NCBI RefSeq assembly: GCF_016904885.1
Contig: NZ_JADWYI010000001.1
Location: 2,790,001-2,854,000 of the forward strand
Origin: Archangium primigenium
GTDB taxonomy: Bacteria; Myxococcota; Myxococcia; Myxococcales; Myxococcaceae
Reading direction: 5' to 3'
Length of the DNA: 64,000 bases
Of this stretch, positions 35,146 to 41,719 are shown one piece after another. The notes under the pieces were generated by a model. The model was not told the DNA's origin and did not search any database. It saw nothing but the letters and a program-made list of their open reading frames with translations. The stretch's first letter is position 1; each line of letters begins with the position of its first letter. Both the position numbers and the translations under genes were made by a program.

Positions 35146-36089
35146 GCGCCCTCCCGGGGGCCGAGCGCGAGCAGGTCCAGGCACACCTGGCGCGTCTCCG
35201 GGTTGTCCGCCTGGACCCAGAGCTTGAGCGTACGGGGCTCGCCCGGAGGCACCTGGCGCGAGACCTTCTGCACGCCCTCGAGCCCCGGGGGAATGGCGAT
35301 GGACAGCGCGGGCGCCTGGCTCCGGGCCTCCTCCACGCCCAGGTGGGTGATGCTCAGGTGGGGCGCGTGGGCGGCGGCGAACTCGAAGATGAGGCCCCCC
35401 TCGAGCCGCCACTCCGTGCCCGCGGGCACGCCATCGAACTCGGCCACGAGCCGCTGGGGCCCCCCGGGCGGGTGCATCCACAGGCAGTGGCGGGGCTGGT
35501 AGCGCAGCTCGTGCCACTCGGGGGCCACGTACAGGTGGGAGGCGCCCAGGCATCGGTGCGCCCGGCCATCGAAGGGGCAGTCCGTGCGGGTGCCGTCCGG
35601 AGACTCCAGGTAGACGCGGGCCCGGGCATGGGCCTCCGAGGCCACGAAGCGCCGGGGCTGGTGACGGCCGTTCGTGTACAGCGTGAGCGTCAGGGGCCCG
35701 GCCTGGCGGGGGGCGCCCACGGCGGTGCGTCCGGGGAGGAACGCGGCCTGGAAGCCGGCCGCGTCGGCGCGCGGCAGGCCGGGCTGTCCGAGCACCCAGA
35801 CGCGCGGGTGGGCGTCCAGGTCATCCGCGTCCGAGCCGAGGTAGCCGTATACGGGCGTCTGGGAAGGCAGGTAGAGCCGGGCGCGCTCCGTCCACCAGGG
35901 AAAGAGCAGCACCGCGTCCCCCGGGCGGGCCTCGGCGCTCAGCCAGCCGGCTACGGCGCGGTAGTCCTGCTCCGAGGGGAACAGGCCCGGCAGCCGCAGC
36001 TGGAACACGAGACAGGCGAGGGCGACGAGCAGCAGCCCTCCCAGCTCCACCAGGGGGAGGGCGCGCGACGGCGACCTAGGACTTGGCAA
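35142..36089 (-). CDS. GT-C-associated protein: membrane anchor plus soluble GT39-like C-terminal domain
   Basis: The 315-residue protein has one N-terminal membrane helix (LPLVELGGLLLVALACLVFQ), then a soluble part. The first section (YRAVAGWLSAEARPGDAVLL then VYGYLGSDADDLDAHPRVWV) looks like the lumenal C-terminal domain of GT39-type transferases. The rest is beta-rich (CLGASHLYVAPEWHELRYQP then EWRLEGGLIFEFAAAHAPHL) and may bind carbohydrate. No multi-span catalytic region is present. The TTG at 36089, 14 bases inside carG, is the best start; GTG at 36050 is an alternative. It is translationally coupled to the glycosyltransferase, suggesting a two-protein complex. Confidence 0.65.
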   Translation of the reverse strand: MPSPRSPSRALPLVELGGLLLVALACLVFQLRLPGLFPSEQDYRAVAGWLSAEARPGDAVLLFPWWTERARLYLPSQTPVYGYLGSDADDLDAHPRVWVLGQPGLPRADAAGFQAAFLPGRTAVGAPRQAGPLTLTLYTNGRHQPRRFVASEAHARARVYLESPDGTRTDCPFDGRAHRCLGASHLYVAPEWHELRYQPRHCLWMHPPGGPQRLVAEFDGVPAGTEWRLEGGLIFEFAAAHAPHLSITHLGVEEARSQAPALSIAIPPGLEGVQKVSRQVPPGEPRTLKLWVQADNPETRQVCLDLLALGPREGA

Positions 36090-36588
36090 GGCGGAGCTTC
36101 TGCTCGCTCTTCTCGCGGCAGAAGCTGCAGAAGGAGGGCTCACCCGTGTTGAAGGACGGCGTCCAGGGCGGGTACATCGCGCAGCGCGGATCCAGGCAGT
36201 GGTGCAGGCCCCACAGGTGGCCAATCTGCTGCAGCGCGTTGCGGGCGATGGGCTTGAAGGCCGCCTCGAAGTCCTTGTGCCCGTGCGTGGTGATGATGGC
36301 CCGGTTCTGGTTGTACAGGGCGTAGCCGGTGGTGGGCGCCTTGCCGCCGGGCAACTCGCGCTCCTTGAGCTTGCGCGAGGTGATGAAGAGGACCTTGTCG
36401 TCCTCGTAGGCGCGCACGCCCTTGATGTCCTTGATGAGCTGCTCCGCGTCCAGGGGCTCGGACATGCCCGGGGGCACCTCCTTCTGGCCGGAGTGCTCGC
36501 TGCCCACGCCAAACGCCGTGTAGAGCGCCTGGCAGAGCTTGGCGGTCTGCTTTTCGTCGAAGGAATCCAGCGTCACGACGCGAATCAC
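36076..36588 (-). CDS. carG: CarG, zinc-bound archaemetzincin-like transcription cofactor
   Basis: The 170-residue protein follows carD by 42 bases. It has the archaemetzincin layout, but the protease motif is degenerate: residues 120-131 read QQIGHLWGLHHC where active enzymes have HExxHxxGxxH. Gln120 replaces the first His and Gln121 the catalytic Glu. His124, His130, Cys131, Cys136, Cys154 and Cys157 remain as zinc ligands (the last two in CSFC). This is known for Myxococcus xanthus CarG, which binds zinc, lacks protease activity and works with CarD in light-induced carotenogenesis and fruiting body development. The start is GTG at 36588 after GGAG. Confidence 0.88.
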   Translation of the reverse strand: MIRVVTLDSFDEKQTAKLCQALYTAFGVGSEHSGQKEVPPGMSEPLDAEQLIKDIKGVRAYEDDKVLFITSRKLKERELPGGKAPTTGYALYNQNRAIITTHGHKDFEAAFKPIARNALQQIGHLWGLHHCLDPRCAMYPPWTPSFNTGEPSFCSFCREKSEQKLRLAKS

Positions 36589-36630: not shown

Positions 36631-37671
36631 TCACTCATCGGACTCGAAGTCCTCGTCCAGGTCGGCCTCGGGCTCGGCCTCGGTGTCCTCGGCCTCGTTG
36701 GGCCGGGCCTTGGGCGGACGGCCGCGCTTCTTGGGCGCGGCGGCGGCGGCCTCGGCACCCTCGGGCTTGGGCTTGGGCGGACGGCCGCGCTTCTTGGGCG
36801 CGGCGGGAGCGGCCTCGGCGCCCTCGGGCTTGGGCTTGGGCGGACGGCCGCGCTTCTTGGGCGCGGCGGGAGCGGCCTCGGCGCCCTCGGGCTTGGGCTT
36901 GGGCGGACGGCCGCGCTTCTTGGGCGCGTCGCCGTCGCCGGACGCCGCGGCCTTCTTGGCCTTGGGCTCGCCCTCCTCGTCGGAGTCCTCGCCGCCCTCG
37001 CCGCCCTCTTCCTCGGAGGACTCCTCCTCCTCGGCGGGCTCCTCCTCGTCCGGAGGCAGGTCCAGGTCGCCGTCCAGCCCGAGCAGGTCCGCGTCCAGGC
37101 CGAGATCCTCGTCGCCCTCGCCGCGGGTCTTGAACTCGGCGGCGGTGCGCTTGGGCCGCTCGCGGCCGGGCGGGAAGAGGACCACGTCGAGGGAGTCCTC
37201 GGCGTTGGCCTCGGAGATGTTGAGCGCCGCGGCCAGCTCGGACACCAGCAGGTGCCGGGCGTTGTCGTAGAGCTCGCGCTCCTTGGTGGGCAGGGGCCGC
37301 AGCTCGCTGAGCACCTGCAGGCCCTTGACGACCTCGGCCAGACCGAGCAGCCCGCCCTGGGTCATGCGATCCAGGTTGGTGCGGGCGCGCTGCTTCCAGT
37401 CCAGGTCCGCCTTGTCGCTGTCGGAGCGGAGGAAGTCGAAGACCTGGGTCACGTCCTCGCCGCCCGCGACCTTGCGCACGCCGATGGAGAGCACCTTGGC
37501 CTGAGGCACCATCACCACGGCCCCGTCTTCTTCCCGGCGCATCGTGACGAACGTGAGCTTCTGACCGGCCACTTCTTTGACGTCGATGGCCGAGACCCGG
37601 CAGACCCCCTGGTTGGGGTAGACCACCCGGTCGCCAACCGAGAGCTGGAGTGACGCGGAGCCTTCTGGCAT
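36631..37671 (-). CDS. carD: CarD, HMGA-like global transcription regulator
   Basis: The 346-residue protein has the CarD/CdnL/TRCF RNA-polymerase-interacting domain at residues 8-70 (VGDRVVYPNQGVCRVSAIDV). A helical domain follows to about 165. Then come an acidic region (about 200-236, many Glu/Asp) and four AT-hooks KKRGRPPK at residues 251, 272, 293 and 314. This combination is specific to myxobacterial CarD, which binds A/T-rich minor grooves near sigma-factor-controlled promoters and needs CarG. ATG at 37671 is chosen because MPEGSASLQLSVGDR matches the domain start. carG lies 42 bases downstream in the same operon. Confidence 0.95.
   Translation of the reverse strand: MPEGSASLQLSVGDRVVYPNQGVCRVSAIDVKEVAGQKLTFVTMRREEDGAVVMVPQAKVLSIGVRKVAGGEDVTQVFDFLRSDSDKADLDWKQRARTNLDRMTQGGLLGLAEVVKGLQVLSELRPLPTKERELYDNARHLLVSELAAALNISEANAEDSLDVVLFPPGRERPKRTAAEFKTRGEGDEDLGLDADLLGLDGDLDLPPDEEEPAEEEESSEEEGGEGGEDSDEEGEPKAKKAAASGDGDAPKKRGRPPKPKPEGAEAAPAAPKKRGRPPKPKPEGAEAAPAAPKKRGRPPKPKPEGAEAAAAAPKKRGRPPKARPNEAEDTEAEPEADLDEDFESDE
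36709..36921 (-). repeat. 63-bp tandem repeats coding AT-hooks in carD
   Basis: Three full 63-bp units and part of a fourth code for the AT-hook KKRGRPPK plus a spacer of about 13 residues (PKPEGAEAAPAAP). Units are nearly identical at the DNA level, so the number of hooks can change by recombination. Confidence 0.85.
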
Positions 37672-37838
37672 GTCCCCCTCATCGTCGGAGAGTAAGAGAG
37701 CGGCGCAGGTCGTAACATAACCCTTCGCCGATGCCACGACTTACCGCCGGGGATTTCCGTTCCCCTCTTGTGCGGCCGTGCGGACGAGCGGGTGTCCCCT
37801 TTCCGGGAGGGCCCGGTGCTACAGGCCGCTACAGGCCG

Positions 37839-37869: not shown

Positions 37870-38592
37870 TCAGGGCATGCGCATCACGGCGTCGATGCCG
37901 AAGCAGATGCGGGCGCGCCAGGGCGGCGGGGGCATGGCGGCCAGGGTGAGCAGCTTCTCCAGCCGCTCCACGGTGTCCTGGCGCAGGGTGCCGAAGTTGA
38001 CGCCGAAGGAGGGCAGCACCTCGGCGCCGCCCGCGGACGTCCAGGCCACCTCGCCATGCAGCATGAGCGTGCCGAGCGACAGCTCCATCTCCAGGAGGAA
38101 GGGCATGCCGACCTTCACCGTGGTGGGCAGGGCGGGGGCTTCCACCTCCAGGCCCACGCCGCCGCGCGACAGGTCGCGCACGAAGAAGAGCGGGGCGAAG
38201 GGCGTCTCCTCCTCGGAGGCCGGCAGGTTCAAGGGGATGCGCGCATGGCGGCGCAGCTTCTCGTACTCCTGGAGATCGAAGATGCGCTGGAGCACCGTGT
38301 CCAGGCCGCCCCGGTCCTGACCCGGGTCGTACTTCACGGTGAGCAGGTAGCGGTCACCGGGCTGGGGCGTCGAGCGCACCACCTCGCCCAGCACCTCCAC
38401 GGGCTTGGTGAGGCCCGGGTTGTGCAACTCGAAGACGAACCGCGTGCCCACCGGAAGGCTCTTCTGGGTGTGCAGCGTCACACCCCCCCGACCGATGCTG
38501 CGTGTGTACTCACTCAGCAGATCCTCGGGCTTCTTGTAGGCCACCTTGAGGCGCACCTCGCCGAGGGTCTGCTTCGTGCCGCTCTCGCTCAT
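37870..38592 (-). CDS. Tandem PilZ domain protein
   Basis: The 240-residue protein has two PilZ-like modules. The first (about 10-90: RLKVAYKKPEDLLSEYTRSI GRGGVTL, then VGTRFVFELHNPG) is the variant called TIGR02266 in myxobacteria and lacks the RxxxR motif. The second (about 105-220: LRRHARIPLNLPA, then VRDLSRGGVGLEVEAPAL) has RRHAR and DLSRGG and should bind c-di-GMP. It probably acts as a cytoplasmic c-di-GMP effector. ATG at 38592 is used; an ATG four codons upstream is possible. Confidence 0.8.
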   Translation of the reverse strand: MSESGTKQTLGEVRLKVAYKKPEDLLSEYTRSIGRGGVTLHTQKSLPVGTRFVFELHNPGLTKPVEVLGEVVRSTPQPGDRYLLTVKYDPGQDRGGLDTVLQRIFDLQEYEKLRRHARIPLNLPASEEETPFAPLFFVRDLSRGGVGLEVEAPALPTTVKVGMPFLLEMELSLGTLMLHGEVAWTSAGGAEVLPSFGVNFGTLRQDTVERLEKLLTLAAMPPPPWRARICFGIDAVMRMP

Positions 38593-38672: not shown

Positions 38673-39281
38673 TCAGGCCTTGGGCAGCTCGCCGACGTGG
38701 AGGGAGAGGGCCTCCTTCTTGTAGACGTACGTCGCCTCGGACGTCTGGATGGTGCCGTCGAACACCAGCTTCACGCTGCCGGCGTGCGTCGCGGTGGCCG
38801 ACACGTCCATGGTGAGCTTCACGTCCACGTCGAGCGTGTCGGAGATCTCCCCGTCGATGCTCACCCGGCCCTTGTGGGCGATGGCGAAGCCCAGGCCCAT
38901 GAGGTCCGGCTCCAGGTTCAGGCCCATGGAGGTCTTCAGGGTGCCGTTGAACTCGTTGCGCCCGTCCTCGTTGCACGCGTCGTAGGTGACGGAATAGGTG
39001 AACAGTCCGCCGCCCGGGCCGCCCTCGGTCGTCAACTCCAGGTGGGCCGTGCCGCCGTGGAAGCACGTGGCGCTGAGCGTGAACCCGGAGGTGGCGCCGC
39101 TGGCCATCGCCCGCGAGATGAGCGCCTGGCCCGTCGTGTTGTGGCCCCGGCCCGGCGCCTGCGAGAGCTGGAACACGGCCTGGGCGGCCCCGTCCTTGCC
39201 TCCTCCGAGCTTCGCGCCTCCACAAGCGGACAGACCCAGGGCCAGCGCGGAGACCACCAGCGGACGAATCGAACGCGTCAT
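38673..39281 (-). CDS. Lipoprotein of unknown function
   Basis: The 202-residue protein has a lipoprotein signal (MTRSIRPLVVSALALGLSAC, with Cys20 lipidated). The mature part has two cysteines (SATCFHG and YDACNED) that may form a disulfide, and alternating strands ending KKEALSLHVGELPKA. It looks like a beta-sandwich envelope protein. No family is recognised. It is divergent from the dcw operon across about 230 bases. Confidence 0.75.
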   Translation of the reverse strand: MTRSIRPLVVSALALGLSACGGAKLGGGKDGAAQAVFQLSQAPGRGHNTTGQALISRAMASGATSGFTLSATCFHGGTAHLELTTEGGPGGGLFTYSVTYDACNEDGRNEFNGTLKTSMGLNLEPDLMGLGFAIAHKGRVSIDGEISDTLDVDVKLTMDVSATATHAGSVKLVFDGTIQTSEATYVYKKEALSLHVGELPKA

Positions 39282-39402
39282 GTGTGCACCTTTCGTCGTG
39301 TCGCGGCGGCGTGCTGCCCGGGGCCGCTCGCGAGGCGCGTCATGACAGAGGGCCTCGCGCGGGGTCAATGCGACACGGGTCTGTACGGGCCTGTTGCATT
39401 TC

Positions 39403-39431
39403 TTGACCGGGTAGGGGGCCGCGCGTATTTT
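39403..39431 (+). promoter_or_regulatory. Sigma-70-type promoter of the dcw operon
   Basis: TTGACC (39403-39408) and TATTTT (39426-39431) are separated by exactly 17 bases, a near-consensus housekeeping promoter in very GC-rich DNA. The predicted start is near 39438, about 70 bases before mraZ, just ahead of the AGTGG repeats. Confidence 0.75.
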
Positions 39432-39441
39432 CCGCCGCCCG

Positions 39442-39468
39442 AAGTGGATCGGAGTGGCAAGGAGTGGC
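39442..39468 (+). promoter_or_regulatory. Three 10-bp-spaced AGTGG repeats, candidate MraZ operator
   Basis: AGTGG occurs at 39443, 39453 and 39463, one helical turn apart, immediately after the predicted transcription start and about 45 bases before mraZ. MraZ in other bacteria binds short G-rich direct repeats with 10-bp spacing (TGGG-N5 in E. coli, related boxes in Mycoplasma) in front of its own gene. A fourth, degenerate copy (ATGGGG) follows at about 39472. Confidence 0.65.
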
Positions 39469-39509
39469 GTGATGGGGATCGGCCGGGCTGACAAGGTGGT
39501 TGCTTCCGC

Positions 39510-39959
39510 GTGTTCCGAGGCGTCTACGAGCACCAGATCGACGCGAAGGGGCGCACGAGCCTCCCGTCACGGCTGCGCGAGACGCTCGTGGGGGGCTACG
39601 ACGAGCGCCTCATCGTCACGACGGCGCTCGATCCCTGTCTGCACGCCTATCCGGTGCGCGAGTGGGAGCAGTTGGAGGTGGCGCTCGCCCGCCGCAACCC
39701 CCTGGAGCCCGGGGTGAAGACGTTGATGCGGCTCTACGTGGCGAGCGCGCAGGAGTGCCCCCTCGACAAGCTGGGGCGGTTGGTGATCCCCCCGTCGCTG
39801 CGAGCGCACGCGGGGTTGGACAAGGACGTGGTGTGGGCGGGGATGGTGAAGGTGATCGAGCTGTGGAGTCGCGAGGGCTGGGCGCGTGCCCAGGAGGAGG
39901 CCCGCAAGGAAGCCTCCAGCGCGGACGTGATGCGCGTGCTCACCGAGCTGCGCCAGTAG
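39510..39959 (+). CDS. mraZ: MraZ, transcriptional regulator of the dcw operon
   Basis: The 149-residue protein has two AbrB-like MraZ modules. The first begins [21 protein letters not shown]. The second has [22 protein letters not shown]. Both DxxGR signatures (DAKGR and DKLGR) used for DNA contact are intact. MraZ forms ring oligomers and represses its own operon in E. coli. The GTG at 39510 starts directly at the domain. It is the first gene of the operon, 47 bases before the STAS gene. Confidence 0.95.
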
Positions 39960-40006
39960 CGGACCAGAAGTTCGACGTGATGCGGGAAAGCCGGGAAGGT
40001 GGCGAC

Positions 40007-40384
40007 ATGAACCAGGTAGCCGAAGCGCAGGGCATCCGCGCGGTCTCCAGTGGCCGGGTGGAGACGCTCATGCTCGAGGGGGAGCTGCTGGAGCGGGATC
40101 TCGTCCAGGTGTGCGAGGACCTGGCGCTGCGCATGCAGCGCGGCCTGCGCAACGCCGTGCTGGACTTCAGCGACGTGAGCCACCTGGACTACCGCGGCGT
40201 CAAGCCCCTGTTGGCGCGCGCCGACGCCTTCCGCAAGGCCGGCGGGGACATCAAGCTGTCGGGCCTGTCGCCCTACCTGGCCGCCATCTTCCGGGCCGCC
40301 GGAGCGCATGACAGCTTCGAGCTCTACCCGCACATGAACGACGCCCGGGCCGCCTTCGCGCTCTCGCGCGCTCCGTTCGTCTGA
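40007..40384 (+). CDS. STAS-domain protein inside the dcw operon
   Basis: The 125-residue protein is a single STAS (anti-anti-sigma factor type) domain: [40 protein letters not shown], and [20 protein letters not shown]. Where SpoIIAA-type proteins have the phosphorylated Ser in D-S-S-G, this protein has Asp61-Tyr62-Arg63-Gly64, so the usual switch serine is missing. It lies between mraZ and rsmH, which are normally adjacent, and ends four bases before rsmH. It may be a structural or partner-binding STAS protein. GAAGGTGG precedes the ATG. Confidence 0.82.
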
Positions 40385-40388
40385 CGCC

Positions 40389-41297
40389 TTGGCTGACTTC
40401 GGCCACCAGACCGTCCTCCTGCGCGAGGCGGTGGATGTCCTCCAACCGGGCGCGGGCAAGGTGATCATCGACGGCACGCTCGGTGGGGGCGGGCACTCGG
40501 CGGCCCTGCTCGCCCGGGGCGCGCGGGTGCTCGGCGTGGATCGGGATCCCGTGGCGCTCGCGGCCGCGCGGGCCCGGCTCACGGACGCGTCCGCCTTCGA
40601 GGCCCGTCAGGGCAACTTCAGTGAGCTGCTCACGGTGGCCGCGGACGTGCTGCCCGTGGACGGCGTGCTGGTGGACCTGGGCGTGTCCTCGCCGCAGCTG
40701 GACGTGGCCGAGCGGGGCTTCTCCTTCCAGAAGGACGGGCCGCTGGACATGCGCATGGGCGACACGGGCCGCACCGCCGCGGAGCTCATCGACGAGGAGG
40801 ACGAGGCGCAGCTCGTGCAGGTGCTGCGCGAGTACGGCGAGGAGCCCTTCGCCCGGCCCATCGCCCGCGAGCTCAAGCGCGCCCTGCCCGCGCGCACCCT
40901 GGAGGCCGCCGAGGCCGTCAAGCGCGCGGTGCCGCGCAAGGCCTGGCCCCAGAAGATCCACGTGGCCACGCGCACCTTCCAGGCGCTGCGCATGGCGGTG
41001 AATCAGGAGCTGGAGTCCCTGGAGTCGCTGCTGGCCGCGCTGCCGCGCCTGCTCAAGGTGGGGGGCCGCGCCGCCGTCATCTCGTTCCACTCGCTGGAGG
41101 ACCGCAAGGTGAAGGAGACCTTCCGGGACCTGGTGGGTGGGTGCAAATGCCCGCCGGGCCTCCCGGTGTGCGTGTGTGGTGGCCAGGGGGACTTCACCCT
41201 GGTGACGCGCAAGGCGCTCGCGCCCTCGGACGACGAAATCGCCGCCAACCCCCGTGCCCGTAGCGCGCACCTGCGCGTGGTGGAGAGGATTCGATGA
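40389..41297 (+). CDS. rsmH: 16S rRNA (cytosine1402-N4)-methyltransferase RsmH (MraW)
   Basis: The 302-residue protein has the RsmH pattern: the start [15 protein letters not shown], the SAM-binding [12 protein letters not shown], then [28 protein letters not shown], and [17 protein letters not shown]. It methylates C1402 of 16S rRNA in the decoding site. The start codon is TTG at 40389, the only one that keeps the conserved N-terminus. Its stop overlaps the ftsL start. Confidence 0.95.
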
Positions 41298-41719
41298 GCC
41301 GCAGCAAGTTCATGTCGTCGCGAGGGATGGGCGGGACCGCCCGGGCCCTGGGTCCCAATGGCGCGTCGGTGGGCCGGGTGTTCCTGCACCTCTTGCCCGC
41401 GGTGCTGCTCTTCGGACTGTTCGCCGGGGTGGGCATCCTCCACGTGACGAGCCGGGTGCTGGTGGTGGACATGGGCTACCGGCTCTCCAAGGCCGAGGCG
41501 GAGGGGCGGGACCTCACGCGCGAGAATGATCGGCTCAAGCTGGAGCTGGCCACGCTCAAGAACCCAGCGCGCCTGGAGCGGCTCGCGCGCGAGAAGCTGG
41601 GCATGGCCATGCCCGCGGGCCCGGCCGTCATCGCCCTGCCCGAGTCCGGTGGCAAGCGTCCCGTTCAGGCCCGAAGCGCCCCGGTGGTGCGCGTGGCGGA
41701 GCGCGGCGGAGCACTCTGA
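41294..41719 (+). CDS. ftsL: Cell division protein FtsL
   Basis: The 141-residue protein has one membrane helix at about residues 28-52. A coiled-coil follows ([31 protein letters not shown]), then [11 protein letters not shown], the usual FtsL layout. A disordered cytoplasmic start and a 35-residue basic tail flank it. FtsL joins FtsQ and FtsB to activate FtsWI. It is placed by position and layout, since sequence conservation is low. Its start overlaps the rsmH stop by four bases. Confidence 0.85.

Follow-up and report, generated by a model that had tools for sequence, protein, structure and literature searches.

A STAS-domain gene without the switch serine precedes rsmH in the dcw operon across a class of myxobacteria

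Of the 145 genomes of the class Myxococcia that possess an rsmH locus, 144 have a gene for a single-domain STAS protein immediately ahead of rsmH, and its product carries a conserved aromatic residue in place of the serine on which related proteins are switched. Among bacterial gene orders that of the dcw operon is one of the best conserved, and it usually opens with mraZ followed by rsmH. The gene was encountered in a 64,000-nucleotide stretch of Archangium primigenium DNA (hereafter, the window), where the order is mraZ, STAS gene, rsmH, ftsL (Table 1). It is characterized by its place before rsmH, its conservation, its predicted fold and the replacement of the Ser by an aromatic residue accompanied by His59 and Tyr90.

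We tentatively read it, with a confidence somewhat short of even, as a vertically inherited, class-wide member of the dcw operon encoding a STAS adaptor; its docking on a core division or wall protein, perhaps RsmH, would be constitutive and free of any Ser phospho-switch. The first-pass annotation of this DNA had reported a STAS ORF without the switch serine between mraZ and rsmH, an observation that proved right and even understated; the interpretation attached to it was partly supported.

Table 1. Features of the dcw locus in the window (positions in nucleotides from the first letter of the window)
Feature	Position	Strand	Evidence or remark
Predicted sigma-70-like promoter of the operon, TTGACC-17-TATTTT	39403-39431	+	sole promoter-like site in 39250-41400; 0.1 expected
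MraZ-box-like direct repeats	39444-39477	+	GTGG at 39444, 39454 and 39464 (10-nt period), then TGGGG at 39473
mraZ	39510-39959	+	Pfam MraZ, 107 bits; NCBIfam NF001482, 183.5 bits (cut-off 168)
dcw STAS gene	40007-40384	+	125 aa, ATG to TGA; Pfam STAS and STAS_2 over cut-off
Signature H59-L-D-Y62-R-G64, replacing x-x-D-S-S-G	40181-40198	+	alignment with SpoIIAA, members and controls
Tyr90 codon, third family-specific conserved residue	40274-40276	+	Tyr in 143/144 members vs 1/28 controls
rsmH (mraW)	40389-41297	+	NCBIfam TIGR00006, 310.8 bits; begins 4 nt past the STAS stop

Distribution and descent of the STAS gene

The sample of the class comprised 147 genomes, 145 of which have an rsmH locus (G134 and G146 have none); the DNA upstream of rsmH was read in all 145, and STAS ORFs were recognised with an iterated profile. 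In the only exception, G020 (locus L079; a 66% complete assembly), mraZ runs into rsmH with no STAS gene between them. This absence may be either a real loss or an effect of the assembly, in which a weak profile match stands elsewhere (E 1.3e-7). A search with a single sequence retrieved 130 of the 147 genomes, the 17 misses being 14 that the profile recovered, G134, G146 and G020. Moreover, only three of the 145 genomes have no mraZ ahead of rsmH, and the STAS gene stands downstream of mraZ in 141. Had the gene been strain-specific, the first-pass reading would have fallen; this survey of myxobacterial dcw operons gives no such picture. The gene had also been described as "inserted" between mraZ and rsmH: the position holds, but the word needs care, as the gene is an old resident of the operon throughout the class.

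Outside the class, 48 genomes of the phylum were taken, and 39 could be assessed, having mraZ and rsmH on one contig and on the same strand; the other nine were beyond assessment by the gap, five lacking rsmH and four lacking mraZ. The gap between the two domain matches is at most 250 nt in 36 of the 39, leaving no room for an extra gene. In the remaining three (G165, G166 and G167), a gap of 460-507 nt encodes a STAS protein over the Pfam cut-off. All three keep His59, with Tyr at residue 62 in G165 and Arg in G166 and G167. The latter two belong to a distant lineage of the phylum, where a divergent STAS gene with Arg at the switch position occupies the same place (L251:1866-2225 and L252:2092-2451). 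Since profile A1 overlooked both of them, a miss by A1 is no proof of absence.

A scan of named genomes returned 67 loci, 42 of them between mraZ and rsmH. All 42 carry V-x-H-x-x-[YF], in 40 cases as H-[LFV]-[DN]-Y-R-G, and their records are titled Archangium, Corallococcus, Myxococcus, Pyxidicoccus, Hyalangium, Citreicoccus or uncultured relatives, apart from two titled Deltaproteobacteria and one Comamonas. The dcw locus in the last of these (L208, Comamonas sp. KCTC 72670) is myxobacterial, and the name of the record is probably wrong. The other 25 loci (from Chloroflexus, Gemmatimonadetes and others) are without H-x-[DN]-Y-R-G, and neither mraZ nor rsmH was present in the flanks fetched.

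In the protein tree, families f2, f3, f6 and f19 form clades and f1, the family of the window, does so but for one f9 member, while the branches of f7-f9 are unresolved, with weak support. The clades by family fit vertical inheritance. In comparisons with eleven relatives, the STAS gene has a low dN/dS (0.16-0.35), much like that of rsmH (0.21-0.34); this range and the presence in nearly the whole class mean that the STAS ORF is more than a chance reading frame.

Such genes are presumably annotated simply as STAS proteins. No description of a class-wide dcw STAS gene was found among the literature matches listed, a search beyond which most subscription papers lay; neither "STAS" nor "Myxococc" appears in the text of PMC8871954.

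Sequence signature and predicted fold of the product

The product of the window's gene scores 47.2 bits against Pfam STAS (PF01740; cut-off 22.6) and 39.2 bits against STAS_2 (cut-off 29.2); the PF01740 score and the STAS fold indicated by the model and by PDB matches place it in the STAS superfamily. PF01740 was matched by all 43 members of profile A1 (E <= 0.01). The start codon chosen is backed by three congeners, which conserve its ATG but not the alternative one, in frame, at 39980.

In the alignment with SpoIIAA, the motif D61-Y62-R63-G64 (40187-40198) falls on D-S-S-G, with Y62 on the first Ser, which we take to be the phosphorylated one. Of the 144 members in the class, 133 have Tyr at position 62 and six have Phe, while Cys, Gly, Ser (G011, the sole case) and His occur there once each; the one remaining row, that of G144, is cut in the alignment, and although the protein reads HLDYRA it is outside the count of 133. 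The replacement of D-S-S-G by D-Y-R-G, read at first in a single genome, is thus borne out, with Tyr or Phe at the switch position in 139 of the 144 rows. This conservation excludes a Ser/Thr switch at the site for nearly all members and, as far as Ser/Thr at this position goes, supports the suggestion of an unphosphorylatable form.

H59 is present in 142 of the 144 members, and H59, Y/F62 and Y90 occur together in 139, whereas G038 has none of the three. Among 28 control STAS domains, F/Y occupies position 59 in 24, Ser position 62 in 25, and position 90 is mostly D/Q; these controls are few and biased, being 28 aligned out of 29 (25 loci outside the phylum, found via one search pattern and from few lineages, and four from the window's genome). 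The fixation of H59, Y62 and Y90, set against the controls, indicates that, beyond the loss of the serine, a different set of residues was fixed. The lack of any conserved surface, which had been named as a ground for dropping the first-pass reading, is therefore not what is found.

An AlphaFold2 model of the window's protein, built from 43 orthologues, has a mean pLDDT of 88.7 and matches the structures of SpoIIAA and RsbS; in it, helix 2 begins at Tyr62. Judging from the secondary structure, H59, Y62 and Y90 would lie close in space, where helices 2 and 3 have their N-terminal ends. In family f3, perhaps the Anaeromyxobacter family, helix 2 has 9 residues in the models instead of 16 (about eight fewer), and both signature and fold are kept (model pLDDT 93.1), as if selection acted on the predicted patch. 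An in-frame TGA in f3 could suggest a pseudogene or recoding; an intact ORF of 99-100 aa is present in the f3 loci inspected, and the TGA is taken for a mapping artefact.

Proposed partner switching and a possible MlaB-like role

The first-pass annotation had proposed that the gene links the expression of cell-wall and division genes to a partner-switching network, a proposal that a search of ten small genomes does not support. In six out of ten small genomes (G124, G125, G126, G127, G140 and G141) the dcw STAS protein is the only match to PF01740, the one of the two STAS models (the other being PF13466, STAS_2) used for the genome-wide search; these six assemblies are 87-99% complete (G125 88%, G127 94%), so that absence is no proof. 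Matches to HATPase_c_2 are present in all ten small genomes, and each of the ten ORFs scanned (3/3 in G125, 3/3 in G127, 3/4 in G126 and 1/5 in G140) combines HisKA with HATPase_c and is therefore a histidine kinase. Histidine kinases thus account for every such match in G125 and G127; the fourth match in G126 lies in a 445-aa frame outside the scan. The class-wide kinase survey did not discriminate, since PF13581 also matches histidine kinases. As for SpoIIE phosphatases, two of the ten small genomes have none, seven have weak matches and G144 a clear one (2.2e-36), with four of the ten over the cut-off.

On this proposal the protein would be a locked antagonist: Tyr or Phe would keep it permanently unphosphorylated, and an RsbW-type anti-sigma kinase would be bound by it at all times, leaving a sigma factor free. 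SpoIIAA, RsbV and RsbS are indeed the closest to it by sequence and fold, full-length HATPase_c_2 matches occur in short frames of some large genomes (e.g., G068 and G072), and in the window's own genome (G000) such a kinase domain at C1:140039 is near two other STAS domains. Nevertheless, the reading is at odds with G125, G126 and G127 (assemblies 88-99% complete), which have no second PF01740 match and where the HATPase_c_2 hits are the histidine kinases mentioned above (all three in G125 and G127, three of four in G126); furthermore, the adjoining genes are mraZ and rsmH, with no kinase or sigma gene next door. We therefore regard it as unlikely, although the RsbW-like kinase candidates of some large genomes imply that the STAS protein may have more than one role.

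An MlaB-like role is possible but not favoured, and we consider it quite improbable. The protein would here stabilise or regulate, as a subunit, an ABC ATPase such as MlaF, although its gene is not among the mla genes. MlaB, a STAS protein of minimal size, has its partner surface at the same site, around Thr52 (PMC7367683). MlaE was found in 20 out of 20 genomes tested; no STAS ORF was seen by eye beside mlaE at six mla loci (G000, G125, G126 and G127; about 1.5 kb on each side), and G125-G127 contain no other PF01740 match. On the other hand, MlaE is also present in G166 and G167, whose dcw STAS protein is divergent, and the score against the MlaB family model is 17.4 bits for a cut-off of 90. 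In addition, two MlaF-like proteins of G126 (250 and 248 aa) end about where residue 246 of E. coli MlaF aligns, and hence would be without the C-terminal extension bearing Tyr261, Leu265 and Leu266, which in E. coli is part of the MlaB site (PMC7367683).

Operon organization and congeners without mraZ

In the scan of 39250-41400 no promoter-like site was found before the STAS gene or before rsmH, and the block of 78 nt around the predicted promoter (39364-39441) is identical at 72-75 of 78 positions in three congeners. The GTGG repeats stand just 3' of the predicted -10 element. Runs of at least three repeats occur in 77 of 141 mraZ upstream regions versus 0 of 2820 mononucleotide shuffles; the repeats fit MraZ boxes, at which MraZ would presumably bind. 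With rsmH starts estimated from alignments, the median spacing between the STAS gene and rsmH in the 144 genomes is 10 nt; it lies between -8 and 25 nt in 137 out of 143, with an overlap of 1-8 nt in 22 out of 143, G023 being left out of these two counts for its value of -252, due to a STAS stop hidden by masked bases. Such tight spacing suggests translational coupling of the STAS gene to rsmH.

Upstream of the operon, on the opposite strand, the window contains a lipoprotein-like ORF without a Pfam match (38673-39281), divergent from the operon and adjoining its promoter, a PilZ-domain ORF (37870-38592), a CarD-family protein (36631-37737; CarD_C and CarD_TRCF_RID) whose C-terminal half repeats the AT-hook-like motif KRGRPPK, and a peptidase M54 ORF of the archaemetzincin type (36076-36588). 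An ORF similar to the lipoprotein-like one stands at the same place in G073-G075.

These last genomes (loci L151-L153), three of the four in the window's genus, represent a natural deletion of mraZ in a core operon: no MraZ match was found in the whole genome of any of them. They keep the promoter block and an intact STAS gene, and are without a run of three GTGG repeats. The STAS start lies 201-202 nt past the promoter block, compared with 565 in the window; with mraZ missing, the operon begins with the STAS gene in these genomes. In G075, the only one of the three compared with the window, dN/dS is 0.29 for the STAS gene and 0.28 for rsmH.

These data bear on the idea that the STAS protein modulates MraZ and so tunes the repression of the operon. 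Its position 3' of mraZ in most of the class agrees with this, but the retention of the gene in the mraZ-less congeners, intact and with a dN/dS in G075 close to that of rsmH, implies that MraZ is not a needed partner, and the idea appears to have little chance of being correct. A tyrosine phospho-switch in place of the serine one is the least probable of the readings weighed here, and very improbable indeed, since, despite the Tyr62 of 133 out of 144 members, the six genomes with Phe belong to three families, so that the Tyr hydroxyl, and hence tyrosine phosphorylation, is not needed in general.

A proposed constitutive adaptor in the dcw operon

A constitutive adaptor for a core protein is the reading that best suits a STAS protein without the phospho-switch that is kept class-wide beside rsmH, its conservation centred on the predicted ends of helices 2 and 3. 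According to this reading, H59, Y62 and Y90 would form a fixed docking patch near the place where SpoIIAA and MlaB meet their partners, the patch would bind its partner constitutively, and the output would be set by the amount of protein made with the operon rather than by Ser phosphorylation. Such a partner would have to occur in the whole class, genomes of 2-3 Mb included, and the first candidates would be RsmH itself or a cytoplasmic division or wall protein of the same operon. RsmH comes first because adjacency to it survives where mraZ is absent; adjacency is, however, weak evidence and may reflect operon history only.

Some data stand against the patch, namely Cys, Gly, His or Ser at position 62 in single members, the absence of the signature from G038 and R62 in G166 and G167; against the class-wide part of the reading stands the STAS gene missing in at least the G020 assembly. 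The most specific version, in which the His-Tyr-Tyr patch binds RsmH or a divisome protein constitutively and a sigma-switching module has turned into a structural part of the control of division or ribosome maturation in myxobacteria, is doubtful, and we hold it with clearly less confidence than the general one.

A class-wide extra gene in the dcw operon suggests that these bacteria, known for their complex life cycles, control division or the wall through an additional layer of their own lineage, and it offers a STAS protein that apparently works without the usual phospho-switch. Myxococcus xanthus, whose orthologue is in locus L206, is genetically tractable, and the absence of mraZ from three related species provides a ready comparison.

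Comparison with known STAS proteins

Like SpoIIAA and RsbV, the dcw protein consists of a single STAS domain. SpoIIAA provides its best single-sequence match (1auz, E 0.0014) and a fold match (1tid, Foldseek E 1.5e-6, Z about 15). Unlike these antagonists, it has no phosphorylatable Ser, bears the H59/Y62/Y90 signature and sits between mraZ and rsmH. It scores 32.8 bits against the anti-sigma antagonist model TIGR00377 of NCBIfam, below the cut-off of 53.45, and the Ser/Thr expected at the switch of an antagonist is Tyr in the window and Ser in one of 144 members.

The highest VIA-align Z, 15.9 (1.8 A over 107 residues), was obtained with RsbS (6jhk), and SpoIIAA comes within 1 of it, in effect a tie. 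In RsbS a conserved Ser/Thr is phosphorylated (PMC7367683), a site that the dcw protein lacks; a stressosome component would be expected to have this Ser site and rsbR/rsbT as neighbours, and here Tyr, mraZ and rsmH are found instead.

MlaB shares with the dcw protein the condition of a short, stand-alone STAS protein not tied to sigma control. The sequence relation between the two is weak (6xbd_K, E 2.6e-5 with the profile), and the MlaB model that the dcw protein fails to reach is NF033618. Where MlaB has Thr52, the dcw protein has Tyr, and its gene stands outside the mla operon, in the dcw operon beside rsmH.
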